From positions 1 to 51,491 of the forward strand of contig NZ_FNEK01000034.1 in the NCBI RefSeq assembly GCF_900099935.1: a DNA stretch of 51,491 nucleotides, in the 5' to 3' direction. Position 1 is the first letter of the stretch; each line of letters opens with the position of its first letter. Positions 34,311 through 51,491 of this stretch are shown here, piece by piece. A model generated the notes under the pieces. The model was not told where the DNA came from and did not search any database. It saw nothing but the letters and a program-made list of their open reading frames with translations. Both the position numbers and the translations under genes were made by a program. The DNA is from Aliiruegeria lutimaris (GTDB lineage: Bacteria; Pseudomonadota; Alphaproteobacteria; Rhodobacterales; Rhodobacteraceae).

Positions 34311-35258
34311 TCACAGAACGGGAGTGGGCAGGTCCTCGCCCGCGAAATGGGCCGAGAGGTTGTCACGTACCAGTTTGCCCATCGCCTTGCGGGTCTCGAA
34401 CGTGCCCGAAGCGTGGTGGGGCTGGAGAAGGACGTTGTCGAGCTTGAGGAAGCGTTTATTCAGCGCTGGTTCGCCTTCAAAAACGTCCAGTGCCGCAGAA
34501 CCGAGCGTGCCGTCTTCCAGCGCATCAAGAAGCGCCTCTTCGTCGACATTTGAAGCGCGGGAAACGTTGATGATCATCCCTTCCGGGCCGACCGCTTCGA
34601 TCACCTCGCGGCTGACGATGTGGCGGGTTTCGGCTGAGGCTGCGAGGGTCACGAAAAGGAAATCGGACCGTTCGGCCAGGGCAACGGGATCGGCGATGAA
34701 CTCCCAATCGGAAGCGTATTCCTTCGGGGCCACGTCGCTATAGGCGATATCCATGTCGAAACCGGACAACCGCTTGGCGACTTCGAAACCGATCCGGCCA
34801 AGGCCGAGAACACCAGCCCGCTTGCCGTGCACCCGGTTGCGGAGCGGATACAGCCCTTTGGCTGCCCAGCTTCCGTCTTTCACCCAGGTTTCGGCACCGA
34901 TCATGCCGCGGGACTGGACCAGCATCATCGCCACGCCCAGATCGGCAACATCGCAGGTCAGCACGTCAGGCGTATTGGTCACTCGAATGCCGCGCTCGCG
35001 GCAGGCTTCCAGATCGACAGCGTCATAGCCCACCCCGTAGACCGAGATCACTTCCAGGTTGGGACAGGCGGAAATCATCGCGCGATCCGCCCCGAGCTCG
35101 CCGCGGGTGGCAATCCCGCGAATCGTCGGTCCAACCTCGGCAAGGAACGCCGCCTTGTCCGGCGCATCGAAATATCTATGCACGGAAAAGGCTTCGTTCA
35201 GAGGGATTTCATCCCATTCGGGATAGGGGCCGACCTGCAGGATTTCGGGGGTTTCCAT
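34311..35258 (-). CDS. D-2-hydroxyacid dehydrogenase (2-ketogluconate reductase-like)
   Basis: This 315-residue NAD(P)-dependent enzyme has VYGVGYDAVDLEACRERGIRVTNTPDVLTCDVADLGVAMML, the nucleotide loop GVLGLGRIGFEVAKRL, NVSRASNVDEEALLDAL with the catalytic region, and VLLQPHHASGTFETR with the active-site His. It probably reduces glyoxylate, hydroxypyruvate or 2-ketogluconate. Next to an idonate dehydrogenase remnant and a gluconate dehydrogenase-like SDR, a 2-keto-sugar acid is the best guess. The ATG at 35258 lies 27 bases from the shared operator. The idonate dehydrogenase remnant follows its stop directly. Confidence 0.9.
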   Translation of the reverse strand: METPEILQVGPYPEWDEIPLNEAFSVHRYFDAPDKAAFLAEVGPTIRGIATRGELGADRAMISACPNLEVISVYGVGYDAVDLEACRERGIRVTNTPDVLTCDVADLGVAMMLVQSRGMIGAETWVKDGSWAAKGLYPLRNRVHGKRAGVLGLGRIGFEVAKRLSGFDMDIAYSDVAPKEYASDWEFIADPVALAERSDFLFVTLAASAETRHIVSREVIEAVGPEGMIINVSRASNVDEEALLDALEDGTLGSAALDVFEGEPALNKRFLKLDNVLLQPHHASGTFETRKAMGKLVRDNLSAHFAGEDLPTPVL

Positions 35259-35275
35259 ATCTGCTTCTCCTCGCC

Positions 35276-35304
35276 TTGACATTCTATGGTATCGATACCA
35301 TAAG
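35276..35304 (+). promoter_or_regulatory. Divergent promoter with perfect 18-bp operator
   Basis: TATGGTATCGATACCATA (35285-35302) is an exact palindrome in the 89-base gap between the divergent dehydrogenase and SDR genes. A TTGACA box at 35276-35281 is followed 17 bases later by CATAAG, so the operator lies between and over the core promoter elements of the SDR operon, a place where binding would block transcription. The LacI-type protein encoded at 37468 is the obvious candidate to bind it. Confidence 0.8.
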
Positions 35305-35347
35305 CGGGATTGCACAGATTTGTCGAGGCCAAAATCGGAGACACACC

Positions 35348-36121
35348 ATGGCGACTGGAATGGAACTTTTCGATCTGAGCGGAAAGACGGCCCTCGTAAC
35401 CGGCTCGTCCCAAGGGATCGGCTTCGCTCTTGCCAAGGGCCTGATGGAGGCCGGTGCCGCTCTCATCTTGAACGGACGCGATGTGGACAAACTGGCGGGC
35501 GCGGCCAAAGAACTGCGCGCTGCAGGTGGAACTGTCTACGAACTCGCCTTCGACGCGACTGACCATGCTGCCGTCAAGGCCGCCATTGACACGTTCGAGA
35601 CGGACATCGGACCGATCGACATTCTGGTGAACAATGCCGGGATGCAGCACCGCACCGAGCTTCAGGACTTCCCGCCTGAAGCCTTTCAACAATTGCTTCA
35701 GACCAATATCACGACCGTCTTCAACGTCGGCCAGGCTGTCGCCCGCCACATGATTGGACGTGGTGAAGGCAAGATCATCAACATCGCTTCGGTACAGACC
35801 TCCCTCGCCCGCCCGGGCATCGCCCCCTACACGGCGACCAAAGGCGCCGTCGGCAACCTGACCAAGGGCATGGCGACCGACTGGGCGAAGTACGGGCTGC
35901 AATGCAACGGGATCGCTCCGGGCTATTTCGACACGCCACTCAACGCCGCGCTTGTTGCGGACCCTGATTTTACCGCATGGCTGGAAAAGCGGACCCCGGC
36001 TGGCCGGTGGGGCAATGTCGATGAACTAGTGGGCGCCTGCGTGTTTCTGTCGTCGCCCGCGTCGAGCTTCGTCAACGGCCACACACTGTACGTGGATGGC
36101 GGCATCACCGCGTCGCTCTGA
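35348..36121 (+). CDS. SDR oxidoreductase, gluconate 5-dehydrogenase-like
   Basis: This 257-residue short-chain dehydrogenase has ALVTGSSQGIGFALAKGLMEAGA (nucleotide loop), NNAGMQHRTELQDFP, the catalytic Ser in IASVQTSLARPGIAPYTATKGAVG with Tyr and Lys, and ends with the usual YVDGGITASL. The sequence resembles gluconate 5-dehydrogenases (IdnO/Gno), which reduce 5-ketogluconate. It opens an operon-like run with the 6PGDH-like, EthD-like and LacI genes. The operator overlaps its promoter. Confidence 0.9.
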   Translation: MATGMELFDLSGKTALVTGSSQGIGFALAKGLMEAGAALILNGRDVDKLAGAAKELRAAGGTVYELAFDATDHAAVKAAIDTFETDIGPIDILVNNAGMQHRTELQDFPPEAFQQLLQTNITTVFNVGQAVARHMIGRGEGKIINIASVQTSLARPGIAPYTATKGAVGNLTKGMATDWAKYGLQCNGIAPGYFDTPLNAALVADPDFTAWLEKRTPAGRWGNVDELVGACVFLSSPASSFVNGHTLYVDGGITASL

Positions 36122-36157
36122 GCCAGAGCCTTCCAGGCAAGCAACAGACAGGAGAGC

Positions 36158-37048
36158 ATGATGACATTGAACGTTGCCCTGATCGGAGCCGGCGCCATGG
36201 GCGGTGCCATCGGCACCCGGCTTGTGGAAACCGGATGCAACCTGACAGTCTTTGACCTGGATCTGGAAAAGGTCGCGGTCCTGACGGAAAAGGGCGCCTC
36301 GGCGGCGAGTTCAGCCGCGGAGGCCGCCGCCGCAAGCGACTTTGTCATCACCAGCCTGAATGCGGCAAAGATCGTGGAGATCGCCGTTTTCGGACCTCAA
36401 GGCGTGGCCGAAGGCGCGAAGCCGGGAACGCTGATCATCGACATGTCGTCGATCGATCCGGAAGCGACCAAGGCGCTGGCCGTGAAGGCGGCCGAAGCGG
36501 GCCTTCGATGGGTCGACAGCCCGCTTTCCGGCGGTGCGCCGAAGGCGCTGATCGGCGAGTTGACCCTGATGGCCGGCGGCACCGAAAAGGACGTTGCCGA
36601 CGCCCATGAAGTTCTCAAGCACGTCGCAAGCAACTACACCCATATGGGGCCGTCCGGCGCCGGGCAGACGACCAAGCTGATCAACCAGGTCCTTTGCGGT
36701 CTCGGGTTTCTTGCTGTCGCCGAAGCGACGCAACTTGCCGAGGATGCGGGCGTGGACGCGGCCAAGATACCGCAGGCATTGAAGGGCGGGCGGGCCGACA
36801 GCGCGCTGCTTCAGGAGTACATGCCCCGCTTTGCCACGCGCGATTACCGCCGCACAGGGCGGATCGACAACATGGTCAAGGATCTGAACGGCGCCCAGGA
36901 CCTGGCACGGCTGACCAACACGTCCATGCCCCTGACGGCGGTCTGCGCCGAGGTGCACCGCATGCTCACCGCCGCCGGTCTTGGCGGCGAAGACCAGGCC
37001 GCGCTGATGGAATACTTCAAAGGCCCCAACAGGGACAAACTGTCATGA
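36158..37048 (+). CDS. 6PGDH/3-hydroxyisobutyrate dehydrogenase-like oxidoreductase
   Basis: This 296-residue NAD(P)-dependent beta-hydroxyacid dehydrogenase has VALIGAGAMGGAIGTRL at the start, IIDMSSIDPEATKALA, DSPLSGGAPKALIGELTLMAGG and GAGQTTKLINQVLCG with the catalytic Lys. Relatives include tartronate semialdehyde reductase, L-threonate dehydrogenase and 3-hydroxyisobutyrate dehydrogenase; the sequence does not decide. The context of sugar acid genes favours a C3-C4 or C6 hydroxyacid. It overlaps the next gene by four bases (ATGA). Confidence 0.9.
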   Translation: MMTLNVALIGAGAMGGAIGTRLVETGCNLTVFDLDLEKVAVLTEKGASAASSAAEAAAASDFVITSLNAAKIVEIAVFGPQGVAEGAKPGTLIIDMSSIDPEATKALAVKAAEAGLRWVDSPLSGGAPKALIGELTLMAGGTEKDVADAHEVLKHVASNYTHMGPSGAGQTTKLINQVLCGLGFLAVAEATQLAEDAGVDAAKIPQALKGGRADSALLQEYMPRFATRDYRRTGRIDNMVKDLNGAQDLARLTNTSMPLTAVCAEVHRMLTAAGLGGEDQAALMEYFKGPNRDKLS

Positions 37049-37377
37049 TTACCCGATATGCCATGTTCGAAGGTCGCCTCAAGGACGGCAAGACACAGGC
37101 CTTCCGGGACGGCATCCGCGATCGCCTCGTGCCGATCCTGAAAACCTTCGACGGTGTCCTCGAGGTAAGCATCGCCTTTACGAACGAGCGCGACGAAGGG
37201 GCGCCGGACCTGCCGCTGATCCTCGCGGTGTCCTATCCGGATGTCGATACGATGCGGGCCGCACTTGCCAGCCCTGCCCGCGAACATGCGATCGAAGTGA
37301 CCGGCGAGATCTTTGCCGAATGCTTTGACGGCCACATTCACCACCATGTCACGGAGCGCACGGCCTATCCGGTGTAA
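37045..37377 (+). CDS. Small dimeric alpha/beta-barrel (EthD-like) protein
   Basis: This 110-residue protein starts MITRYAMFEGRLKDGK and ends with HIHHHVTERTAYPV. The length and the strand-helix layout suggest a ferredoxin-like dimeric barrel, as in EthD or antibiotic monooxygenase-like proteins. The family match is loose. It is translationally coupled to the preceding dehydrogenase gene, so a helper role in the same pathway is plausible. Confidence 0.65.
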   Translation: MITRYAMFEGRLKDGKTQAFRDGIRDRLVPILKTFDGVLEVSIAFTNERDEGAPDLPLILAVSYPDVDTMRAALASPAREHAIEVTGEIFAECFDGHIHHHVTERTAYPV

Positions 37378-37467
37378 TCGCACCCGGCCTCCCGGCACTA
37401 AAAAGCGGGAACCCGGAAATGCTTGCGCTCCCTTGCGGATGGCACCGACAGGATCGAAAAGGCGAAC

Positions 37468-38481
37468 ATGAGCCGCAAGATCACAATGAAGGACGTTGCC
37501 AAGGCCGCCGGCGTCGCGCCGATGACGGTTTCGCGCGCCTTCAAGTCGGACGCCGTGGTCAACGCCGATACCCGCGCCAGGGTGATGAAAGCGGCCGAGG
37601 AGTTGGGCTATGTCTTCGACAGCGCGGCATCCAACCTGCGTTCCCGGAAGTCCGGCTTTGTCGCAGCGATCATCCCGTCGCTGAACAACGCCAACTTCGC
37701 CGACACGATTGGTGCCATGTCCAGGGTCCTGGAACAGCATGGGCTCCAGATCCTGCTAGGCTACACCGGCTACAGCGTCGACGAGGAACAGCGCCTGATC
37801 GAACAATTGTTGCGCCGCAGCCCCGAAGCGATCGTGCTGACAGGGGGCCACCACACCGAGCGGGCGCGAGAACTGCTCGCGAACGCCACTGTTCCGATTA
37901 TCGAAACCTGGGACCTTCCGGACAAGCCGGTCCAGCATGTCGTTGGCTTTTCCAACACGACCGCCATGAAGGGATTGGTGGATCACCTCATTTCGAGAGG
38001 CTTCACGAAGATCGCCTTTCTCGGTGGGGATGCGGCGGGTGACCACCGGGGCCAGGCGCGGCTGGCCGGCTTCCTGGAGGCGCTCGGTCGCCACGGCCTG
38101 GACGCTTCACGCCTCATTTCCGCCGGCCCGGCCCCCGTCGCCATGCGGGAAGGCGCCCTGGCCATGCAAAGCCTGCTGGCCAGGTTCCCGGATACGGAAG
38201 CAGCGGTCTGCGTGTCTGACCTGTCCGCCTTCGGCGCCCTGACCGAATGTCAGCGCCGCGGGCTGCGGGTTCCGGAGGACATCGCCATCGCCGGGTTCGG
38301 TGCCTATGACATCTCGGCCTTCGCTCACCCGACAATCACGACGATAGACGCATTTCCGACCGAGATCGGGCGCAAGACTGGGCAGTTGATCGTCAAGCTG
38401 TTGCGGAGCGACGAGGTGCCTGTCGATCCGCAAATAGAAGAGATCTTTCCGCAACTGGTTGTACGGCAATCGGCTCCGTAG
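37468..38481 (+). CDS. LacI-family regulator
   Basis: This 337-residue regulator has the LacI head MKDVAKAAGVAPMTVSRAFKSDAVVNADTRARVMKAAEELGY, a hinge helix (SAASNLRSRKSGFV) and a periplasmic-binding-protein-like sensor domain. It resembles GntR-type regulators of gluconate genes. It probably binds the palindrome at 35285 in the same cluster and responds to a sugar acid. Start choice: the ATG at 37468 begins the head; the open frame extends 15 codons further up. Confidence 0.93.
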   Translation: MSRKITMKDVAKAAGVAPMTVSRAFKSDAVVNADTRARVMKAAEELGYVFDSAASNLRSRKSGFVAAIIPSLNNANFADTIGAMSRVLEQHGLQILLGYTGYSVDEEQRLIEQLLRRSPEAIVLTGGHHTERARELLANATVPIIETWDLPDKPVQHVVGFSNTTAMKGLVDHLISRGFTKIAFLGGDAAGDHRGQARLAGFLEALGRHGLDASRLISAGPAPVAMREGALAMQSLLARFPDTEAAVCVSDLSAFGALTECQRRGLRVPEDIAIAGFGAYDISAFAHPTITTIDAFPTEIGRKTGQLIVKLLRSDEVPVDPQIEEIFPQLVVRQSAP

Positions 38482-38515
38482 CGGGTTGGCGCCGGAAGCC
38501 GGGTTGCGGGATTGA

Positions 38516-39052
<537 letters not shown>

Positions 39053-39447
39053 CCAGTCGCAATCTCCCAACGACAGGTTTTCCTTGTCCCCAATTGGTGC
39101 GCAGGGGACAGGGATCCATCGGGCGAATGGAGGGGAAACTCGGGGAACGATAGCGGGGCGTACCGTTCAGTTCTGGGGACGTACTGCTTGAGCCAGCAAT
39201 TGATGACGACCTGAGCCTGTCTGGTTGATGTGAACCATTCGGCGTTCAGGATTTCCCTGCGCACTGTGCCGTTGAACCGTTCGTTCAAGGCAAGTCGAGG
39301 ACACCTCCTGTCCACCAGCGTCAAAGTCGCTCGGCGACGTGAGCCTACCCCAGCTGTGAACGTGCGGACTGCCGGCCAGCCGTCGCGCAACGCGCTATCG
39401 GTTGGCCAGCCCGAGAGCAGACCAACCACTGGCATTCCCGATCAGCT
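39053..39447 (-). mobile_element. IS3-type transposase remnant
   Basis: On the minus strand, 39290 to 39181 encodes ALNERFNGTVRREILNAEWF followed by TSTRQAQVVINCWLKQY, the catalytic-Glu end of IS3-family integrase core domains. The expected start and the PHSSLGYRPP end are missing. Around it, no complete frame or terminal repeats can be seen, so it is a decayed copy. It separates the sugar acid cluster from the monooxygenase gene. Confidence 0.75.
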
Positions 39448-42128: not shown

Positions 42129-43154
42129 ATGCTGAAAGACATTAACTTTAACGGCTTGCGGTACTTCGAAGCCGTCGTGCGGCTCGGGAAAGTGTCTCAG
42201 GCCGCCGAAGAGCTTCAGGTGACCACCTCGGCCGTCAGCCAACAGATACGCCTGCTCGAACAGCAATTCGGTGTTTTGCTGTTCCGCCGTCGCAACCGCC
42301 GGTTGATCCCGACCGAAGAAGGCGAGCGGCTCTACAACGCCACATCGAAGGCCTTCCGGCTGATGACGGATGTTCAATCCGCCATCGTCCGCCAACCGCA
42401 GGGCCGGCAGTTCATCATGCGGGTAAGCCCATCCTTCGGTGTGCGCTGGCTGGGGCCGCGGATAAAATCCTTCCTTGAACAGAACCCGAACTGGGCGGTC
42501 CGGGTGGATGCAACGCCGGATTTCTCCGATTTCGAAACCGAGATCGTGGATCTCGACCTGCGTTACGGCCAGGAAACGGCCACCGGATTTCACGAAGTGC
42601 TGGTGATGCAGGATTTCGTGATGCCGATGTGCGCGCCATCCCTGTTGGAGAAGCTCAGGGAAATCAGCGACGACCCGATGGAGCAAATTCGCAAGGCCCA
42701 GCTAATCGATTCCGCGAAGAGCGTGTTTCGTTGGGATCTGTGGCTGAACCGGTATGGCGGACAGTCGCTGTCGATACCGCCCTTGTATCAGCTACGCTTC
42801 GACCGTTCATCGATGGCGATACAACTTGCCGCCGACGGCGCCGGCGTGGCGCTGGAGAGCGTGGTGTTGGCCTGGCGAGAACTCTCTGAGGGACGGCTGG
42901 TACCGCTTTCTTCGCAGATCGACGTGATCGCCTATCCCGCATATCGCGTGGTCTGTCCGCCCCGGCATACCAACCGCCGGATCGTTCGGCTGTTCACCGA
43001 ATGGGTCGTAGAGCAAGGCCTGGAGCACATGACCGAGATCCGGGCCTTCCTGAAGGCGAACGGGTGTCGTGTGGTTCATGAGGACGGGCCGGCGTCGGAG
43101 GGAGGGAGTGACGGGGAGAAGCCGGCCCGTCCGGAAGCGCAGGACCCTCAGTAG
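42129..43154 (+). CDS. LysR-family regulator
   Basis: This 341-residue protein has the LysR head FNGLRYFEAVVRLGKVSQAAEELQVTTSAVSQQIRLLEQQFGVLLFRRRNRRL and a type 2 periplasmic-binding-like effector domain, plus a low-complexity tail of about 40 residues (ASEGGSDGEKPARPEAQDPQ). It resembles GcvA-type LysR proteins. It is not divergent from any operon: upstream is marR in the same direction, and its 3' end overlaps the dctM stop by 7 bases. Its target may be the TRAP-transketolase operon or the monooxygenase. Confidence 0.93.
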   Translation: MLKDINFNGLRYFEAVVRLGKVSQAAEELQVTTSAVSQQIRLLEQQFGVLLFRRRNRRLIPTEEGERLYNATSKAFRLMTDVQSAIVRQPQGRQFIMRVSPSFGVRWLGPRIKSFLEQNPNWAVRVDATPDFSDFETEIVDLDLRYGQETATGFHEVLVMQDFVMPMCAPSLLEKLREISDDPMEQIRKAQLIDSAKSVFRWDLWLNRYGGQSLSIPPLYQLRFDRSSMAIQLAADGAGVALESVVLAWRELSEGRLVPLSSQIDVIAYPAYRVVCPPRHTNRRIVRLFTEWVVEQGLEHMTEIRAFLKANGCRVVHEDGPASEGGSDGEKPARPEAQDPQ

Positions 43155-44404
43155 ATGGTCAGCGCCGGAACGTAGGAGATCAGCAGCAGCACGATGATCG
43201 CGACGCCGTAGAAAGGCAGAAGCGCGCGGACTGTTTCGCCGATTCTGCATCTCGCAATGGCGGTGGAGATGAAGAGCGTCGTGCCCACCGGCGGCGTGTA
43301 GAGGCCGATGGCGAGGTTGACGACCATGATCAGGCCCAGTTGCACCAGGTCCAGCCCGATCGAGTTGGCGATGGTGACGAAGAGCGGCCCGAGCAGGAGC
43401 ACGGCGGCCGGCAGGTCGAGGAAGGCGCCCACGACCAGCATCACGCAGTTGAGGGCGATAATCACCATCCAAGGCTCGGAGAAGGTCACGCCCACCCATT
43501 CGGCCAGCATCTGCGGCACGCGCTCGGCGGTCAGCACCCACTGGATCGTGGAGGAGGCCATGATGATGATCATCACCGCACCGGTCATCATCGCGGTTTC
43601 GACCGAGGCGTCCCAGATGCCTTTCCATGTCAGGTCGCGGTAAAGCAGGCCCGACACGATCAGCGCATAGGCCACGGCCATGACCGAAACCTCGGTCGGC
43701 GTGGCGATGCCGAAGCGCAGCGTGCCTATGACGAAGACGGGCATCAGCAGCGCCGGGATCGCGATGAACACCTGGCTCTTGAAGGCGGCGAAGCCTCCCG
43801 GCAGCGGCGAGCGCGGCAGCTTCATCGCCCGGGCAACGATGGCCACCATGGCGAACATGCCGACGCCGAGCATCAGGCCGGGCAGGATGCCGGCGACAAA
43901 GAGATCGACGATGGAGACGTTGGAGACCAGCCCGAACAGGATCAGCGGGATCGAGGGCGGGATCAGGACCGAGACGGTGGAGGCGCAGGAATTGACCGCC
44001 GCCGAGAAGCCGCCGGGATAGCCTTCCTTCTTCTGCACCGGGATCAGCGCATTGCCGAGCGCGGAAGCGTCGGCCACGGCCGAGCCGGAGACGCCGCCGA
44101 ACATCACCGAACCGATGATGGTCACCTGCCCCAGTCCGCCACGGAAATGGCCGACGAGCAGGCGTGCGATATTGACGAGATAGACGCCGAACTTGCCCGA
44201 CATCATCAACGAACCGGCCATGATGAAGAACGGGATGGCGAGCATCGGGAAGCTCTGCGTGGGCGTGTAGAGGCGCTGGACGATGACCGCGAGCGGCTTG
44301 CCATCGGCAATCAGCGCCGCGGCGACGCCGCCAAGCATTGCGTGGGCCACGGGCACCGAGAAGGCCAGTAGCCCGAAGAAGACCCAAATCAGGGGAGCGG
44401 TCAT
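43148..44404 (-). CDS. TRAP transporter large membrane subunit (DctM)
   Basis: This 418-residue protein has about twelve hydrophobic segments and the DctM pattern: PVAHAMLGGVAAALIADG, FFIMAGSLMMSGKFGVYLVN, GSVMFGGVSGSAVADASALG and NLAIGLYTPPVGTTLF. It is the sodium-driven part of a tripartite solute importer, encoded with the small subunit 12 bases upstream and the binding protein beyond. It is the last gene of the minus-strand operon that begins with the split transketolase. Confidence 0.95.
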   Translation of the reverse strand: MTAPLIWVFFGLLAFSVPVAHAMLGGVAAALIADGKPLAVIVQRLYTPTQSFPMLAIPFFIMAGSLMMSGKFGVYLVNIARLLVGHFRGGLGQVTIIGSVMFGGVSGSAVADASALGNALIPVQKKEGYPGGFSAAVNSCASTVSVLIPPSIPLILFGLVSNVSIVDLFVAGILPGLMLGVGMFAMVAIVARAMKLPRSPLPGGFAAFKSQVFIAIPALLMPVFVIGTLRFGIATPTEVSVMAVAYALIVSGLLYRDLTWKGIWDASVETAMMTGAVMIIIMASSTIQWVLTAERVPQMLAEWVGVTFSEPWMVIIALNCVMLVVGAFLDLPAAVLLLGPLFVTIANSIGLDLVQLGLIMVVNLAIGLYTPPVGTTLFISTAIARCRIGETVRALLPFYGVAIIVLLLISYVPALTIY

Positions 44405-44416
44405 GCTTTTTCTCCG

Positions 44417-44989
44417 TTAGCTCAGGCTGGAGGTTTCATAATCGCTGGCATGCAGGTCCTCACCCGCAATCGTGCGGATGATGTCCACTACAGCGATCAC
44501 CGACATGCCGGCGAAAGCATAGAACAGGCTGAGATAGCCCCAGTATTGCTTGATGCCGAGCGTCGATAGTGTCTGAAATTTTGCCGCCTTCAGGATCGGC
44601 CCGCTGGCGTCGAGCACGCTCACCGAGATCACGAGGATGGTGATGTTGATTGCCAGCGACAGGATGCGCCGCGGTCCTTGGGGCAGCATGTCGGGCATCA
44701 GGGTGATGGCGATGTTGCGTCCACGCGCAGCCGCGATAACGATGCCGCCGCCAACCATCCAGGGAAGCAGAATGGCGTGGATTTCATAAGCCCAGGCGAT
44801 GCCGGAGCCGAAAGCATACCGCAGGATCACGTTGACCAGCAGCGTCGCGAAGGTGACTCCGAGGCACACGGCGGCGACAATCCGACCGCTCCAATCCAGG
44901 AGCGTCGAGATCCCGGTCACCAAAGGGAGGAAGGGGCGTTGCCGCCCCTTCTCGTCTTGGGCCGGGGCATGTGCATCCCCGTTGGTCAT
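44417..44989 (-). CDS. TRAP transporter small membrane subunit (DctQ)
   Basis: This 190-residue protein has four membrane segments with the family's VILRYAFGSGIAWAYEIHAILLPWMVGGG segment and LKIA-like ends. Together with DctM it forms the membrane part of the TRAP importer. The start at 44989 overlaps the DctP stop by four bases (ATGA), which supports this ATG over the much longer open frame. Confidence 0.9.
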   Translation of the reverse strand: MTNGDAHAPAQDEKGRQRPFLPLVTGISTLLDWSGRIVAAVCLGVTFATLLVNVILRYAFGSGIAWAYEIHAILLPWMVGGGIVIAAARGRNIAITLMPDMLPQGPRRILSLAINITILVISVSVLDASGPILKAAKFQTLSTLGIKQYWGYLSLFYAFAGMSVIAVVDIIRTIAGEDLHASDYETSSLS

Positions 44990-45954
44990 TCGAGGCCCGC
45001 TGCCTTGCGGAGCGCGGCGACTAGCTCGGGATAAGTCTCGGCGTACTTGTCGTAAACCGACTGAGTCGCTGCCTGATAGGCCGCCTTGTCGGCCTCGGCG
45101 AAGGTTGCGCCTTCTTCCTCCATTTTCGGCTGCAGAGCGGCATCGGAGGCCGCAACCATCTCGCGCTGCATCTTGCCGGCCTCGGCCGTGGCGCTCACCA
45201 CGCAGGCCTGGGTGGCCTCGTCGAGACCCGACCACCATGCAAGGCCAACAACCACCGGGGTGGTCTCGTACTTATGGCCGGTCATGGTGACGAAGGGCGT
45301 GATCTCGTGCAGCTTGGCTGAATAGATGTTCACCAGCGGGTTTTCTTGCCCGTCGAACACGCCCGATTCCAGCGCGGTCGGCAGTTCGGACCATGCGAGC
45401 GGTGCCGGTGCGGCGCCGAGCGCTTCGAAGATGTCCACGGTCATCTGATCCGGGGGGGTGCGGATCTTCATGCCTTTGAGATCGCCCGGGTTCGGGACGT
45501 TCTTGGTCAGGTGCGTGATGTTCCGGATGCCGTTATCCCAGAAACCAACGATCTTCAGGCCGGCATTGTTGGCGCGTGCATCGAGCATTTCGCCGACTTC
45601 ACCGTCAAGAACCGCCCAGGCCGTAGGCAGGTCGCTAAACAGGAAAGGCAGGCCCAGCAGGCCGATTTCCGGCACGATCTGGGACATGGCGCCCTGGCTG
45701 TTCGCCGTCACCTGGATGATGCCCGCCGAAGCCGAGGTCAGCATCTCGGCGTCGTCACCGAGAGTTGCCGAAGGCGCGACGTTGACGCTGTGTGCGCCAC
45801 CGGTGCACTCGGCAAAGAGCTCGCCCCATTTCTCGGCCGCCTCGTAACGCGGATTGCCCGGGTTGGCGCCATGCGCGAAGATGACCTCATCGGCCTGCGC
45901 GGCCCCGGCCAGCATCGTCGCGCCCAACAGGGCCGTGATCAACGTTGTCTTCAT
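44986..45954 (-). CDS. TRAP substrate-binding protein (DctP)
   Basis: This 322-residue periplasmic protein starts with a signal peptide (MKTTLITALLGATMLAGAAQA, cleavage after AQA). The mature part has FAHGANPGNPRYEAAEKWGEL, LKGMKIRTPPDQMTVDIFEALGAAPAPLAWSELPTALESGVFDGQENP, the region that ends in the substrate-binding Arg and loop of this family. The ligand is not readable. Neighbouring transketolase and SDR genes point to a sugar, polyol or sugar acid. An in-frame upstream extension has no role. Confidence 0.94.
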   Translation of the reverse strand: MKTTLITALLGATMLAGAAQADEVIFAHGANPGNPRYEAAEKWGELFAECTGGAHSVNVAPSATLGDDAEMLTSASAGIIQVTANSQGAMSQIVPEIGLLGLPFLFSDLPTAWAVLDGEVGEMLDARANNAGLKIVGFWDNGIRNITHLTKNVPNPGDLKGMKIRTPPDQMTVDIFEALGAAPAPLAWSELPTALESGVFDGQENPLVNIYSAKLHEITPFVTMTGHKYETTPVVVGLAWWSGLDEATQACVVSATAEAGKMQREMVAASDAALQPKMEEEGATFAEADKAAYQAATQSVYDKYAETYPELVAALRKAAGLE

Positions 45955-46119
45955 GGTTTTCCTCCTCAAGAAAAGCAACTTCCGTCGCCGCGCGAGAAGT
46001 CGCGGGCGTCCCGCGCGGCCCCTTCGGTCGAAGAGGCTGCGGTTCGTGATTTCGTTTTCTGGATCAGTCAATTTCCGGCTCGGCGCCCTCAGCCGCCAAG
46101 CCGTTCAATGGCCGGCGTC

Positions 46120-46884
46120 TCAGTGAATGAGCGAACCGCCGTTCACATCGACCTCGGTGCCGGTGCAATAGGCCGACAGGTCCGAGGCAAGGAACAGAGC
46201 GCAACCCGCGACATCGCTGGCCTCACCGGCGCGGCCCATCGGGATACCGGCCAGAACCATTTCCTTCATCTCCGGCGTCAGCTTGCCCTGCGTGATGTCC
46301 GTGGCGATGAAGCCCGGGCAGATCGCGTTGACGCGGACATTGTCGGGGGCCAGTTCGCGGGCGGAAGCCTTGGTCAGGCCGAGCACGCCGGCCTTGGCCG
46401 CGGAATAATGCGGGCCACCAAAGATGCCGCCACCGCGCTGTGCGGAGACCGACGACATGTTGACGATGGAGCCCGACTTGCGTCCGCGCATGTGCGGAAC
46501 AACGGCCTGGGTGCAGTAGAGCGTGCCGCGCAGGCTGACATCTGTCACCGCGTCATAATTCTCGGGTTCGATCTCCATGAATTTCAGCGGCTGGGTGATG
46601 CCGGCATTGTTCACGAGGATGTCGATCTGGCCCCATTTGGCGATAAGCGCGTCCATGACCTGCTGGGCCTGCGCCTTGTCGATCACGTTGCAGGCCATGC
46701 CGACATGCTGCGGGCCGAGATCGGCCGCGGCGGCTTCCGCCTGCGCCTGGTCGAGATCGAGGATCGCCACCGTCGCGCCATGCTCGGCAAAGAGTTTCGC
46801 GGTGGCCTTGCCCAGACCGCGCGGGGAGGCTGCGCCGGTGATGACGGCGAATTTGCCTTCAAGTAGTCCCATTTTATTCTCCAT
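46120..46884 (-). CDS. SDR oxidoreductase in the TRAP-transketolase operon
   Basis: This 254-residue short-chain dehydrogenase has VITGAASPRGLGKATAKLFAEHGA at the start (TGxxxxxG loop with an inserted Pro-Arg), NNAGITQPLKFMEIE, the catalytic SSVSAQRGGGIFGGPHYSAAKAG with Ser, Tyr and Lys, and a C-terminal DVNGGSLIH. It lies 165 bases before dctP and 12 bases after the transketolase B gene. Two start codons (46884, 46872) are possible; the first has ATTCTCC/GGAGAA just ahead. It probably oxidises a polyol or hydroxy compound taken up by the transporter. Confidence 0.92.
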   Translation of the reverse strand: MENKMGLLEGKFAVITGAASPRGLGKATAKLFAEHGATVAILDLDQAQAEAAAADLGPQHVGMACNVIDKAQAQQVMDALIAKWGQIDILVNNAGITQPLKFMEIEPENYDAVTDVSLRGTLYCTQAVVPHMRGRKSGSIVNMSSVSAQRGGGIFGGPHYSAAKAGVLGLTKASARELAPDNVRVNAICPGFIATDITQGKLTPEMKEMVLAGIPMGRAGEASDVAGCALFLASDLSAYCTGTEVDVNGGSLIH

Positions 46885-46896
46885 TCGTGAGGGCTG

Positions 46897-47925
46897 TCAG
46901 AGCCAGCTTTTGATTTGCTCGCCTACGGCACGGCGGGAGATCCCGTACATGTCGTGCAGCGTCGGCAGGGCGCCGGCTTCGAGGAATTGATCCGGCAGGC
47001 CGATCTGGCGGAAGACCGGCACGACACCCGCCGTCAGCAGGGTCGTGGCCACGGCTTCACCCAGCCCGCCAAGCTTGGTGTGGTTCTCGGCCACCACGCA
47101 GAGCCGGCCCTTGCCGGCCCCGGCGAGGATGGTCTCGGTATCGAGCGGCTTGATCGTCGGGCAGTGCAGCACGGCGACATCGATGCCGTCCTTCGCCAGA
47201 TCTTCGGCCGCGTCGAGCGCCCGCATCGTCATGATGCCGGTCGAGATCACGAGGACGTCCTTGCCCTCGCGGATCATCTGCGCCTTGCCCAGCTTGAACT
47301 GGTAGTCCGGCTTGTGCTTCTGCAGCACATTGGCGACCTGGCCGCGCAGGAGCCGCGCATAGACCGGGCCGTTGTAGGCCACGAGTTCGGGCACCATCTG
47401 CGCCACGTCCGTCGCGTCGCAGGGATCGACGATGGCGATATCCGGGAGCCCGCGGAAGATGGCGATGTCTTCGGTCGCCTGGTGGCTCGGTCCGTAACCG
47501 GAGGTGAGGCCCGGCAGGGCGCAGCAGATCTTCACCGGCAGACCTTCTTCGGCGATCGTCTGGGAGACGAAATCATAGGCCCGGCGCGATGCGAACACGG
47601 CATAAGTCGTGGCAAAGGGGATGAACCCTTCATGGGCGAGGCCGGCGGCCGTTCCCATCAGCGACTGCTCGGCCATGCCCATCTGGTAGAACCGGTCGGG
47701 ATAGGCATTCGCAAAGACATGCAGGTCGGTATATTTTGACAGATCGGCCGAGAGGCCGACAATGCGCTCGTCCTTTTCGGCCAACGCGTTCAGCGCGTTA
47801 CCAAAGGGGGCGGCGACGGTATCATAGCCCTCCGCCTCGAGCGAGGCGATCATCGCGGAAGTGGCCTGTTTCCCCTCGGGGACCTTGCGAGGCTCATATT
47901 TGCGGGCGCGTGTCGCGGCGGTCAT
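46897..47925 (-). CDS. Transketolase, C-terminal subunit (split type)
   Basis: This 342-residue protein has the pyrimidine-binding and C-terminal transketolase domains: ERIVGLSADLSKYTDLHVFANAYPDRFYQMGMAEQSLMGTAAGLA, with the Glu that activates thiamine diphosphate, and CALPGLTSGYGPSHQATEDIAIFRG, then a LCVVAENHTKLGGLGEAV C-terminal domain. It is the partner of the N-terminal subunit gene just upstream, which its start overlaps by four bases. Split transketolases occur in special sugar pathways such as apulose or sulfosugar breakdown. Confidence 0.95.
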   Translation of the reverse strand: MTAATRARKYEPRKVPEGKQATSAMIASLEAEGYDTVAAPFGNALNALAEKDERIVGLSADLSKYTDLHVFANAYPDRFYQMGMAEQSLMGTAAGLAHEGFIPFATTYAVFASRRAYDFVSQTIAEEGLPVKICCALPGLTSGYGPSHQATEDIAIFRGLPDIAIVDPCDATDVAQMVPELVAYNGPVYARLLRGQVANVLQKHKPDYQFKLGKAQMIREGKDVLVISTGIMTMRALDAAEDLAKDGIDVAVLHCPTIKPLDTETILAGAGKGRLCVVAENHTKLGGLGEAVATTLLTAGVVPVFRQIGLPDQFLEAGALPTLHDMYGISRRAVGEQIKSWL

Positions 47926-48770
47926 TCCGGGGTCTCCTCGTCAAGAACGGCCAGGGCCTTCTGCCATTCGTCGGGCTCGACCCGCACGAAATGAGTGATC
48001 TCACGCTCTTCCAGGAAGGGCACGCCCTTGCACATCTTCGTGTCGCAGATAATCACGCGCGGCCGGGCACCCTCGTGCTCGCGCGCGGCATCGAAGGCGG
48101 CGACCAGCGTATCAATGTCGTTGCCGTCGATCCGCTGGGTGAACCAGCCAAAAGCCTCGAACTTGGCGTCGATCGGCTCGGAGGAACACATGCCGGTCGA
48201 CGCACCATCGGCCTGCTGGTTGTTGAAATCGACGATGCAGATCAGGTTGCCGAGCTTGTGATGGGCCGCGGCCATCGCCGCCTCCCAGGTCGAGCCTTCA
48301 CCCAACTCGCCATCGGACATCAGGTTGAAAACGAAGGCCGGGCTGTCCTTGCGCTTGAGACCGAGCGCGCGCCCAACGGCCACCGAGAGGCCAAGACCGA
48401 GCGAGCCGCCGCTCATCTCCATGCCGGGTGTGTAACTGGCCATGCCGGACATTGGCATGCGGCTATCGTCCATCCCGTAGGTTCCAAGCTCTTCCTCGGG
48501 CAGGATGCCCGCTTCCATCAACGCCGCGTAGAAAGCGATGGCATAGTGGCCGATGGAGAGTTGGTAGCGATCGCGCCCTTCCCATTCGGGATCCTCGGCA
48601 CGGTACTCAACTGCGTGAAAGAACGAGACGGCGAGAACGTCGGCGACGCCGAGCGCCTGTCCGACATAACCCTGCCCCTGAACTTCTCCCATCTGGATGG
48701 CTTTGCGACGGATATTCCATGCTCGCCTTGCAAGCGAGACATTCGATCGTCTCTCGATCGAAGCTTCCAT
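47922..48770 (-). CDS. Transketolase, N-terminal subunit (split type)
   Basis: This 282-residue protein is the thiamine diphosphate-binding half: RDRYQLSIGHYAIAFYAALMEAG, GLGLSVAVGRALGLKR, and MSDGELGEGSTWEAAMAAAHHKLGNLICIVDFNNQQADG, the GDG...NN motif that holds Mg and the cofactor, in which the usual first Gly of GDG is Ser. The ATG at 48770 has AGGA ahead. The first 20 codons also carry two hairpin-forming palindromes. It begins the operon tkt(N)-tkt(C)-SDR-dctP-dctQ-dctM, and the promoter lies upstream of 48770. Confidence 0.95.
   Translation of the reverse strand: MEASIERRSNVSLARRAWNIRRKAIQMGEVQGQGYVGQALGVADVLAVSFFHAVEYRAEDPEWEGRDRYQLSIGHYAIAFYAALMEAGILPEEELGTYGMDDSRMPMSGMASYTPGMEMSGGSLGLGLSVAVGRALGLKRKDSPAFVFNLMSDGELGEGSTWEAAMAAAHHKLGNLICIVDFNNQQADGASTGMCSSEPIDAKFEAFGWFTQRIDGNDIDTLVAAFDAAREHEGARPRVIICDTKMCKGVPFLEEREITHFVRVEPDEWQKALAVLDEETPE
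48722..48762 (-). repeat. Two short palindromes at the 5' end of the transketolase gene
   Basis: TTCGATCG and CGATCGAA (48742-48749, 48755-48762) and CTCGC with GCGAG (48722-48738) are exact inverted repeats inside codons 3-17 of the N-terminal transketolase subunit. They can form stems in the mRNA close to the start codon. Confidence 0.5.
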
Positions 48771-49687: not shown

Positions 49688-50155
49688 TCAAAGCTCGTCG
49701 TCCAACGCCGTTCGGAGCGCCACCAGGTCATCGGTCAAGCGTTGCAACAGTTCGGTTCCAACACGCGCTTCGATATCGGCGTAGATACGTGCGCTGGACG
49801 GTGCGACCGTTGCGATGAAGGTCCGCCCCTTTTCCGTGAGCGAGATCAGGCTGCGCCGTCCGTCGGTCTCGTCCCGCCGGCTTGCTACCAGCTTCCGCGC
49901 CTCCAGCGCCTTGATCATTCGCGTCAGGGACGGCGCCAGAATGCAGGCCAGATCGGCGAGCCGCGACGCATCCATCTCGCCACGTTCCTGCAGCACCCGG
50001 ATCACCCTCCACTGCTGCTCGGTAATGTCGTGAGCGTGCAGCAATGGACGGAAATGCTCCATCACCGCCTCGCGGGCACTCAACAGCAATATCGGCAGGG
50101 TTCGGCGCGTGTTGGCCAGTTCGAACCCGTCATGAATCGATTCTGGCGCCACCAT
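49688..50155 (-). CDS. hpaR: Homoprotocatechuate pathway regulator HpaR (MarR family)
   Basis: This 155-residue MarR-type regulator has FELANTRRTLPILLLSAREAVMEHFRPLLHAHDITEQQWRVIRVLQERGEMDASRLADLACILAPSLTRMIKALEARKLV, typical of HpaR/HpcR, which represses the homoprotocatechuate (3,4-dihydroxyphenylacetate) genes and is released by the aromatic acid. It is divergent from hpaF and hpaE with 250 bases between, which hold two repeated candidate operators. The ATG at 50155 fits the family start better than the earlier frame opening. Confidence 0.9.
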   Translation of the reverse strand: MVAPESIHDGFELANTRRTLPILLLSAREAVMEHFRPLLHAHDITEQQWRVIRVLQERGEMDASRLADLACILAPSLTRMIKALEARKLVASRRDETDGRRSLISLTEKGRTFIATVAPSSARIYADIEARVGTELLQRLTDDLVALRTALDDEL

Positions 50156-50297
50156 TCCGCTCCCCCGTAACTTTCCGCCCACTTCGCCCAGCCGTCCTCA
50201 CAAGGCACGCACAAGCCAAGTACTTAACATCGGAAATTACTGCTCTTTCCGAATATCGTCAAATTTATTGAATAAACGATAATATTCCGGATTGTTA

Positions 50298-50385
50298 CTT
50301 ACCATGTTAATGATGTATTCATGTCAAGAATCGCTTCGTAACGACAAAAAACAGCCATACGCTATAACTTAACACGTTAATGATG
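50298..50385. promoter_or_regulatory. Two direct copies of a dyad operator upstream of hpaF
   Basis: CTTACCATGTTAATGATG (50298-50315) and CTTAACACGTTAATGATG (50368-50385) agree at 16 of 18 bases. Each contains an internal dyad of the TTAAC-GTTAA type; the second is exact. They are 70 bases apart start to start, close to seven helix turns. A further half-site (ACTTAACAT) is at 50221-50229. The place between hpaR and hpaF and the pattern make them likely HpaR sites, perhaps with DNA looping. Confidence 0.65.
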
Positions 50386-50405
50386 CTGCCGAGGGAGGAG
50401 ATCTC

Positions 50406-50795
50406 GTGCCAAATCTGACAATAGAATATTCCCCCGGGCTCGAGTCCCGGGCCGATCTTTCGATGCTCTGCCAACAGCTGCATGACGCAATGGTTGGCGC
50501 CGGGATCTTCCCTCTCGCCGGGATCCGCATCCGCGCCCATCGCGCCGATCATTGCATCGTCGCCGATGGTCTGCCGGAGAACGACTTTGCCGCGCTCACC
50601 CTCGCCGTCGGCGCCGGCAGGTCGAGGGAAGCACTGCAGAAAGCCGGCGAGGCAATTTTCGTCGCCGCACAGAGCGCGCTCGTCGAGCCCCTCTCCACAC
50701 CGCATTTCGCCCTTTCGCTCGAAATCCGCGTCATCGACCCGGTGCTGAGCTGGAAAGACACACCCATTCACGCCCGCCTCGCGGGCCAGAACTGA
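50406..50795 (+). CDS. hpaF: 5-carboxymethyl-2-hydroxymuconate delta-isomerase
   Basis: This 129-residue protein is a tautomerase-fold isomerase of the homoprotocatechuate meta-cleavage pathway (HpaF/HpcD). Met is followed directly by Pro2, the catalytic base after Met removal, in MPNLTIEYSPGLE. The C-terminal LEIRVIDPVLSWKDTPIHARL is also conserved. It precedes hpaE by 10 bases, so they would be one transcript. The rest of the pathway lies outside the window, if present. Confidence 0.92.
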   Translation: MPNLTIEYSPGLESRADLSMLCQQLHDAMVGAGIFPLAGIRIRAHRADHCIVADGLPENDFAALTLAVGAGRSREALQKAGEAIFVAAQSALVEPLSTPHFALSLEIRVIDPVLSWKDTPIHARLAGQN

Positions 50796-50805
50796 AGGAT
50801 CGGAC

Positions 50806-51165
50806 ATGGATGTTCTGAACGAAAATATCGCCCGCGCGTCCGCCTACATGGCGAAATTCCGCGAGGCCGGCGTACTGAACCATATCAACGGCGCTTCCGT
50901 GCCGGCCGCCTCCGGTGAAACCTTCGAGACGATTTCACCGGTGGACCTCAAGTCACTCGCTCCCGTCGCCAAGGGGGGCGCGGAGGATATCGACCGTGCC
51001 GTCGCCGCGGCCACGGAGGCCTTCAAGACCTGGTCGAAAACGCCCGGCAAGGAGCGCCGCGCGATCCTCATCAAGGTCGCCGAAGCCATCGAGGCGCGCG
51101 CCGAGGAGATCGCCTTCACCGAATGCATGGATACTGGTCAGGCGCTGCGTTTCATGTCGAAAGCG
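50806..51165 (+). pseudogene. hpaE: 5-carboxymethyl-2-hydroxymuconate semialdehyde dehydrogenase, cut by an IS
   Basis: The first 120 codons match HpaE-type aldehyde dehydrogenases: FREAGVLNHINGASVPAASGETFETISPVDLKSLAPVAKGGAEDIDRAVAAATEAF and ECMDTGQALRFMSKA. After about 51165 the family sequence ends and the left end of an IS110-type element begins. The cofactor and catalytic Cys domains are absent from the visible part, and would lie beyond the element outside the window. So the gene is broken here. Confidence 0.9.
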
Positions 51166-51172
51166 GATGAGG

Positions 51173-51248
51173 TGGATGGCTCCTGCTCCACCGGCATCGA
51201 ACGTGCCAAAGTGCAGTTGTCATCGACTGCGAGGAAAGGAGCCATCCA
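51173..51248 (+). mobile_element. Left end of the IS110 element
   Basis: TGGATGGCTCC (51173-51183) and GGAGCCATCCA (51238-51248) are an exact 11-base inverted repeat flanking a 54-base spacer, immediately before the transposase ATG. This short structured leader is typical of IS110-type elements, whose ends lack classic terminal repeats and in some cases encode a guide-like non-coding RNA. The exact junction with hpaE lies between 51165 and 51173. Confidence 0.65.
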
Positions 51249-51491
51249 ATGACAGTAAAGACGGTGGGCCTGGATTTGGCCAAGGACGTTTTTCAGGTGC
51301 ACTGCGTTTCGGCTACCGGGCGTAAGATCATCAACAAGAAAATCAAACGCGCGAAGCTGCTCGCCTTCTTCGAGACATTGCCACGCTGTGTGGTTGGAAT
51401 GGAGGCTTGCGGTTCAGCCCATCACTGGGGTCGCGAACTGCGCAAGCTTGGCCATGATGTTCGGCTCATGCCGGCGGCCTATGTCAAACCT
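51249..51491 (+). CDS. IS110-family transposase, 5' part
   Basis: The frame starts MTVKTVGLDLAKDVFQVHCVSATGRKI and continues through CVVGMEACGSAHHWGRELRKLGHDVRLMPAAYVKP, the DEDD-type N-terminal (RuvC-like) domain of IS110/IS116/IS902 recombinases with the first acidic residues of the catalytic site (the Asp of GLDLAK and the Glu of MEACG). It is cut by the window end after 81 codons. The protein belongs to the element that breaks hpaE. Confidence 0.93.
   Translation, partial: MTVKTVGLDLAKDVFQVHCVSATGRKIINKKIKRAKLLAFFETLPRCVVGMEACGSAHHWGRELRKLGHDVRLMPAAYVKP

Follow-up and report, generated by a model that had tools for sequence, protein, structure and literature searches.

A conserved module of split transketolase-like enzyme, dehydrogenase and exchangeable transporter in Aliiruegeria lutimaris, with a remodelled active site and a possible role in sugar-acid cleavage

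The window analysed here, a 51,491-nucleotide stretch of Aliiruegeria lutimaris DNA (contig NZ_FNEK01000034.1, assembly GCF_900099935.1, positions 1 to 51,491 of the forward strand), carries an operon in which the two halves of a transketolase-like enzyme (TktNC) are encoded with a short-chain dehydrogenase/reductase (SDR) and a tripartite ATP-independent periplasmic (TRAP) transporter. As described in the first-pass annotation of the window, the six genes run in one direction with overlaps (tktN-tktC-SDR-dctP-dctQ-dctM; all on the minus strand, 48770-43148). tktN (47922..48770; 282 aa; AGGAGG upstream) encodes the thiamine-diphosphate-binding half (PF00456 Transketolase_N, 1.2e-34) and tktC (46897..47925; 342 aa) the pyrimidine and C-terminal half (PF02779 Transket_pyr, 4.4e-32; PF02780 Transketolase_C, 6.5e-30). 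They are followed by the SDR dehydrogenase gene (46120..46884; 254 aa; PF13561 adh_short_C2, 4.1e-70), the TRAP periplasmic binding protein gene dctP (44986..45954, with the ATG at 45954; PF03480, 7.4e-73), the small permease gene dctQ (44417..44989; 190 aa; PF04290, 1.2e-20 on the reading from 45019) and the large permease gene dctM (43148..44404; 418 aa; PF06808, 4.7e-110). Overlaps of 4 bp join tktN to tktC and dctP to dctQ, and gaps of 12 bp separate tktC from the SDR gene and dctQ from dctM; the gap between the SDR gene and dctP is 165 bp, so the TRAP genes could form a second transcript. The profile hidden Markov model (HMM) matches of the six genes include no kinase and no isomerase, again as first annotated. 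Missing from that annotation was a plus-strand gene for a GcvA-like LysR regulator (42129..43154; PRK11139, 222 bits, below the curated cut-off of 288), which converges on dctM and overlaps its stop by 7 bp. The SDR carries the active-site stretch SSVSAQRGGGI-GGPHY-AAK, at least 97% conserved over 92 sequences (not de-duplicated), and an acidic residue after beta-2, a feature of NAD-type SDRs; its best solved relative is 7KRK.

Relatives of the module were drawn from plasmid records (191 of 72,556 matched at 1e-50 or better), a family genome sample and a species-level genome collection; the last contained at least 562 confirmed relatives, of which the best 80 were kept, so that the sample leans to close relatives. 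Of the resulting 115 loci, seven were merged as duplicates (at least 97% identity), and L094, a remote relative, was dropped together with loci shorter than 13 kb. Neighbour families were counted over 98 loci (the window counted; 15 from the family sample) and the main counts were repeated by tblastn over 100 loci (the window excluded). The counts over 98 loci are probably low, because the home-made gene caller, trained on the window genes, misses some genes (the window DctQ among them); the gene-chain comparison accordingly leaves out L090, L092, L139, L148, L165 and L178, in which TktN was missed by the caller.

In 94 of the 100 distinct loci besides the window, TktN has an SDR of at least 50% identity no more than 3.5 kb away, and the core loci span alpha-, beta- and gammaproteobacteria. 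Where found, the proteins show median identities to those of the window of 75% for the SDR (95 loci), 73% for TktN (100 loci) and 69% for TktC (100 loci); for DctM, DctP and the LysR regulator the values are 56%, 50% (49 loci for DctP) and 45% (75 loci), respectively. Within the family sample, TktN occurs in 24 of 198 genomes (its own included) at 64-100% identity, with the next hits listed at 43% or below, and in a tree of 58 sequences 33 orthologous pairs form one group with a support of 100/100. Since orthologues keep the same neighbours in many other genomes, the arrangement is beyond chance: the conserved core consists of TktN, TktC and the SDR, and the module is widespread rather than a local curiosity. 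A reduced operon, SDR-MFS-tktN-tktC, with a major facilitator superfamily (MFS) transporter in place of the TRAP genes, is found in Acinetobacter (MFS gene read by eye) and Pseudomonas; a LysR gene adjoins the Acinetobacter operon and several of those in Pseudomonas. Laboratory species also carry the module, with copies on pSymB of Sinorhizobium meliloti strain Ak57 and in Pseudomonas putida.

To characterize the active site, residues were compared with E. coli TktA over 107 loci of any length (the window counted, L094 left out). In TktN, the position of His26 is occupied by Tyr and that of His100 by Ser in 107 of 107 (Tyr35 and Ser108 in the window), while His66, His261 and Asp155 are kept in all. 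In TktC, Ser385 is replaced by Tyr in 105 of 106 (the remaining one has no letter there; Ser is kept in none), His461 by Leu and Asp469 by Tyr in all 106, and Arg358 is retained in only two; Arg520, Phe437 and His473 are retained in all 106 and Glu411 in 105. The single Glu411 exception probably comes from L089, a Klebsiella pneumoniae record in which tktC is unannotated and its match is split over two separate frames (L089:7849-8807); the gene looks broken or mis-sequenced in that record. In terms of the classical transketolase (EC 2.2.1.1), the thiamine-diphosphate- and metal-binding and catalytic set (D155, H66, H261, E411 and H473) is thus present, whereas the donor and acceptor contacts His26 and His100 and the phosphate head-group motif RSFHR are absent. 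Section 3.4 of PMC11659671 gives this motif for the transketolases of S. stipitis and C. hydrogenoformans, and RAFDR for sulfofructose transketolase; the window TktC has A38-Y65-F111-L137-R194 at these positions and the clade motif is xYFLR. A structure model of TktC was of low confidence at residues 137-146, the active-site loop.

Because most phosphate-clamp residues are lost across the clade, TktNC would be expected to act on a non-phosphorylated ketone. This supports the non-phosphorylated ketose that was first proposed as the substrate; its alternative, an already activated ketose, gained no support. Moreover, as the equivalents of His26 and His100 are lost in every copy, ordinary glycolaldehyde transfer may fail: judged from the residues, the unit moved by TktNC need not be glycolaldehyde. 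The residue at the His100 position, described in PMC7661550 as His in transketolases and Phe in 1-deoxy-D-xylulose 5-phosphate synthase (DXPS), raises a different reading of the same module. In it, a deoxy or methyl-branched sugar acid is turned by the SDR into a methyl alpha-hydroxyketone, from which TktNC, resembling a reversed, phosphate-free 1-deoxyxylulose synthase, cuts off an acetyl-like unit. We consider this reading rather unlikely. The loss of His100 throughout the clade agrees with it, as do some neighbour families of the relatives, namely the DXR-like oxidoreductase DRL (15 of 98 loci), a rhamnonate-hydrolase-like protein (14) and a fuconolactonase-like protein (6). The marks of DXPS, Phe at this position and one continuous chain, are nevertheless both absent, the residue being Ser, which is still able to bind a hydroxyl, and the enzyme having two chains. 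Furthermore, the window operon holds no DRL, hydrolase or lactonase gene; the hydrolase and lactonase labels lie below their cut-offs, and that of DRL, above its Pfam cut-off, names a domain and not a substrate.

A sulfosugar, named in the first-pass annotation among the ligands to be tried, is disfavoured by the same motif. A pathway of the sulfo-TK type would fit a split enzyme, as SqwGH is likewise split and acts on an unphosphorylated anionic ketose (PMC11659671), but SqwGH is reported there with both head-group arginines (RAFDR), whereas the clade shows xYFLR (a comparison with the published motif alone). In addition, no sulfosugar gene was seen among the annotated neighbour representatives, most single-copy neighbours being unannotated. 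This pathway is therefore regarded as highly improbable.

The genome itself (5.8 Mb, 193 contigs) encodes four full-length transketolases and two other split ones, the latter at 34-35% identity to TktN. A replacement of the housekeeping transketolase by TktNC, which the first-pass annotation had offered as a test of its proposal, was rejected on account of the four full-length enzymes. E. coli TktA and the three of these four that were examined (L003 left out) keep all compared residues. The two other split enzymes belong to a group of eight (c11), which we presume to be of the apulose-4-phosphate type. Arg358, Ser385, Arg520, His26 and His100 are retained in all eight; an FGGY-kinase family adjoins seven and a fucose-isomerase-type family six (names that rest on the members in L072 alone), and no SDR was found within 2.5 kb of any of the eight (the contig of L075 is short). 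Of the two copies in this genome, C164 has the kinase family beside it and C178, on a short contig, the isomerase family. The sugar kinase and isomerase that mark such kinase-linked split transketolases are absent from the operon described here; a dihydroxyacetone kinase does occur in 12 of 98 relatives, but it belongs to a different family from their sugar kinase. A kinase-first pentulose route was likewise rejected, as the operon has no kinase and the clamp is mostly lost.

Among the other split enzymes with Tyr at the His26 position, an SDR lies within 2.5 kb in six of seven loci, and directly adjacent on the same strand in 5 of 11 pairs. In the window clade the SDR partnership is thus near-universal; elsewhere in the Tyr class it is frequent without being general, and in c11 it is absent. 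Further branches of the Tyr class were represented by L069, L070, L073, L077, L078, L083 and L094, some of which adjoin genes of enolase-type dehydratase, sulfatase-like, E1-dehydrogenase or Baeyer-Villiger-type monooxygenase kind. In the His class, L084 has Leu at the position of Arg358, and in both L074 and L084 an SDR gene lies no more than 2.5 kb from the transketolase genes, on the opposite strand.

The transporter is exchanged between loci while the core stays, which identifies SDR plus TktNC as the core of the module. TRAP genes of one kind or another occur within 8 kb in 65 of 98 loci and one anion-type MFS family in 11; the D-galactonate transporter model TIGR00893 was the best match of each of the four MFS proteins scanned, which came from loci of Klebsiella, Pantoea, Caballeronia and Pseudomonas, and every score fell below its cut-off. 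In the window, DctP, DctQ and DctM are all matched by HMMs of the DctP-type TRAP family and the conserved binding-site arginine is present: Arg146 and Arg167 of DctP (numbered on a 324-aa reading that starts two codons before the ATG) are invariant in 33 aligned sequences, down to 36% identity, and one of the two would be the carboxylate binder, as in SiaP. The DctP model (pLDDT 91.4) matched TRAP binding proteins in Foldseek, with 7BBR, titled as a sugar acid binding protein, at rank 8 (26% identity) and the binders of sialate, isethionate and C4-dicarboxylates lower in the list. According to a review (PMC5812351), ligands of TRAP transporters include 6-carbon aldonic acids and pantoate/D-erythronate. 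The substrate is thus probably an organic anion.

This bears on the scheme first proposed for the locus, the uptake of a polyol or sugar and its oxidation to a ketose, in a form in which the compound is neutral and a C2 unit is transferred to a phosphorylated aldose, providing entry into the pentose-phosphate pathway. The gene order is compatible with such a scheme, and so are the dihydroxyacetone kinase (12 of 98 loci) and full-length transketolase (16 of 98) genes nearby and, in L087, genes for ribose-5-phosphate isomerase and triose-phosphate isomerase close to the module. With transporters that are either TRAP types or MFS proteins nearest to the D-galactonate transporter model, neutral uptake becomes less likely, and the clamp for a phosphorylated acceptor is mostly lost; the scheme is thus judged improbable. 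Of the first interpretation as a whole, the non-phosphorylated substrate, the catabolic-looking unit with its own transporter and the non-housekeeping role stood, while neutral polyol uptake and the activated ketose did not.

Genes that accompany the module in relatives were also surveyed. The same LysR family occurs within 8 kb in 45 of 98 loci, and the convergent LysR gene of the window is probably the regulator of the module. An enzyme family nearest to L-threonate dehydrogenase, k6, is a neighbour in 27 of 98 loci. A FAH-type hydrolase in 14 loci is nearest to 2,4-didehydro-3-deoxy-L-rhamnonate hydrolase (386 bits against a cut-off of 500), and a lactonase-like protein in 6 is weakly fuconolactonase-like (111 bits against a cut-off of 400). 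A TIM-barrel family (k10) occurs in 17 loci; two of its members matched no NCBIfam model at 1e-6, and a single weak hit in the PDB was to Art22. Like the dihydroxyacetone kinase, this family could hint at the handling of a triose or tetrulose. L-threonate as the sole substrate was rejected, as only one of three k6 members scanned passed the cut-off of 350 for L-threonate dehydrogenase (scores of 404.8, 284.2 and 326 bits) and an OtnK-like cluster (our own, provisional label) was seen in only two of 98 loci. A link to D-apionate through a PGDH_C neighbour in L047 was dropped for want of any NCBIfam match. The full-length transketolase genes near the split one are often divergent from it (for example, L062:291-2312). 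The DRL-family oxidoreductase (PF21135, 193.6 bits in L054) is mostly divergent from tktN and occurs in L047, L049, L052, L054, L060, L062-L064, L143, L150, L160 and others.

The DRL neighbours would also fit a synthetic direction, in which an aldehyde is lengthened by two carbons through TktNC and then reduced by the SDR, perhaps as an isoprenoid-precursor bypass with DRL. Consistent with this, TktC scores 190.9 bits against the dxs model (below the cut-off of 465.95), and RL2718/RL2719 of R. leguminosarum, a pair that may or may not be orthologous, are annotated 'terpenoid biosynth?' (PMC5118466). The dxs score is however general to split C-halves, two others reaching 174.9 and 194.5 bits, and a dedicated importer that is present in most loci and exchanged between lineages favours catabolism, so that we regard the synthetic direction as very unlikely.

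Elsewhere in the window, a second sugar-acid-like locus (34311-39052) encodes a 2-hydroxyacid dehydrogenase, an SDR, a GntR-like LacI regulator, a YhcH/YiaL protein and a 2-hydroxy-3-oxopropionate-reductase-like protein (236 bits against a cut-off of 397). Its SDR matches PRK07523 above cut-off (473.6 bits) and gluconate 5-dehydrogenase below it (313.6 bits; cut-off 408), and close relatives of this SDR sit near TktNC in L052, L060 and L064. A minus-strand frame between YhcH and a phenol 2-monooxygenase-like gene (39013-39435) resembles, by eye, an integrase-core transposase fragment. On the other side of the operon, 49688-51252 holds an HpaR regulator (156.8 bits, above cut-off) and then an HpaF-like gene (by eye), followed by the start of an aldehyde dehydrogenase (by eye) that stays open for only 148 aa, the contig ending at 51491, and may be broken or rearranged.

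Residues and gene context together point to a pathway for the module. Its most probable function, which we hold with about even confidence, is the uptake of an organic anion, with a C4-C6 sugar acid as the likeliest compound, and its cleavage by the SDR and a phosphate-independent TktNC; the substrate class, direction, bond cut, unit transferred and acceptor are all inferred. DctPQM would import the sugar acid (a polyhydroxy carboxylate), and the NAD-dependent SDR would convert it to an alpha-hydroxyketo acid by oxidizing one of the two hydroxyls in a vicinal diol. TktNC with thiamine diphosphate would then attack the new ketone and break the neighbouring C-C bond. A short aldehyde acid would be released, such as glyoxylate, tartronate semialdehyde or tartaric semialdehyde, depending on chain length, and a two-carbon unit would be handed to a small unphosphorylated aldehyde. 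Reductases or kinases, whether their genes lie nearby or elsewhere, would feed the products into central metabolism. In favour of sugar-acid cleavage are counted the SDR core, the swap of transporters between organic-anion types, the reduced operon of Acinetobacter and Pseudomonas, the active-site residues, the nearness of DctP to 7BBR, the contrast with c11, the sugar-acid-type neighbours k6 and FAH hydrolase, and the precedent of an engineered TktA.

Several observations weigh against this pathway. The SDR is missing in 6 of 100 loci, and neither TRAP genes nor the anion-type MFS family are found in 22 of 98 loci, at least two of which (L089 and L095) have another annotated MFS gene. With Ser for His100 and Tyr for His26 in all 107 copies, ordinary glycolaldehyde transfer may not occur, and the enzyme may still make some contact with phosphate, since it retains Arg520, which the engineered TktA had lost. 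Nor is the contrast in the clamp a clean one, as c11 has Ser at His461 in all eight members and, in the His-class split enzymes L071 and L074, Ala replaces Arg358 as well as Ser385. Neighbours vary from lineage to lineage (dihydroxyacetone kinase in 12, DRL in 15, full-length transketolase in 16 and k10 in 17 of 98), and the products, perhaps even the substrates, may therefore vary too. In rhizobial loci, a sugar ABC transporter (5 of 98) and a lactonase-like gene (6 of 98) suggest that a neutral sugar or lactone could come first there. In the open literature, no member of the clade was found with a reported ligand, substrate or activity.

A broader, more tentative reading, to which we give clearly less credence than to sugar-acid cleavage, is that the Tyr26/no-His100 enzymes make up a large class of two-chain thiamine enzymes that need neither phosphate nor C1-hydroxyl contact and cleave SDR-made acyloins from vicinal diols, with the window module as the most widespread branch, transferring a non-glycolaldehyde unit. 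It is weakened by the SDR standing beside only 5 of 11 of the other Tyr-class pairs and by the Ala rows of L071 and L074.

Transketolase is textbook carbon chemistry on sugar phosphates. If the broader class is real, it would provide a modular diol-to-acyloin-to-C-C-cleavage route for sugar acids and other diols, and a carbon route that bypasses sugar phosphates. As His26, His100 and His461 are altered in every copy examined and the SDR is coupled in 94 of 100 loci, the presence of the clade in many soil, plant-associated and marine bacteria would imply a carbon-source pathway masked by the annotations transketolase and FabG. As far as open papers show, a phosphate-independent split transketolase-like enzyme with an SDR and an anion transporter is undescribed; no description of the module was found in the open-access literature, a scope outside which subscription papers mostly fall, and PMC11103875 likewise yielded nothing about the clade.

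Among known systems, the best solved relatives of TktN and TktC are the 6YAK N-chain and 6YAJ, respectively, a transketolase with the same two-chain layout. That enzyme keeps His100 and RSFHR, which TktNC does not, and takes hydroxypyruvate as ketol donor (PMC7661550 and PMC11659671). SqwGH resembles TktNC in being split, in its unphosphorylated anionic ketose donor and in having no preceding kinase, but it has RAFDR, a glyceraldehyde 3-phosphate acceptor and an isomerase upstream, whereas TktNC has xYFLR and the SDR in the isomerase's place (PMC11659671 for SqwGH). The c11 group is likewise a split enzyme in a sugar operon, and differs in keeping R358, S385, R520, H26 and H100 and in having no SDR within 2.5 kb. 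For the dehydrogenase, the A. baumannii SDR beside TktNC is nearly identical to PDB 7KRK/7KRM (515 bits; the alignment shown spans 249 residues and has two mismatches), deposited as a 3-oxoacyl-ACP reductase, that is, under a fatty-acid-enzyme name; a structure of the dehydrogenase of the pathway thus seems to exist already under another name. A chemical precedent is engineered: E. coli TktA R358I/H461S/R520Q showed raised activity on 5-ketogluconate (PMC12016104), with tartaric semialdehyde given as the product (PMC12016104; PMC11066805). Such a keto-aldonate cut is the chemistry proposed here, and R358 and H461 are also lost naturally in the clade, although the engineered enzyme is full-length with Arg520 changed, whereas the clade keeps Arg520 and has His26 and His100 changed too. 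TktNC is a direct candidate for a natural keto-acid transketolase, carrying out the reaction that tartaric-semialdehyde engineering has sought through mutation.

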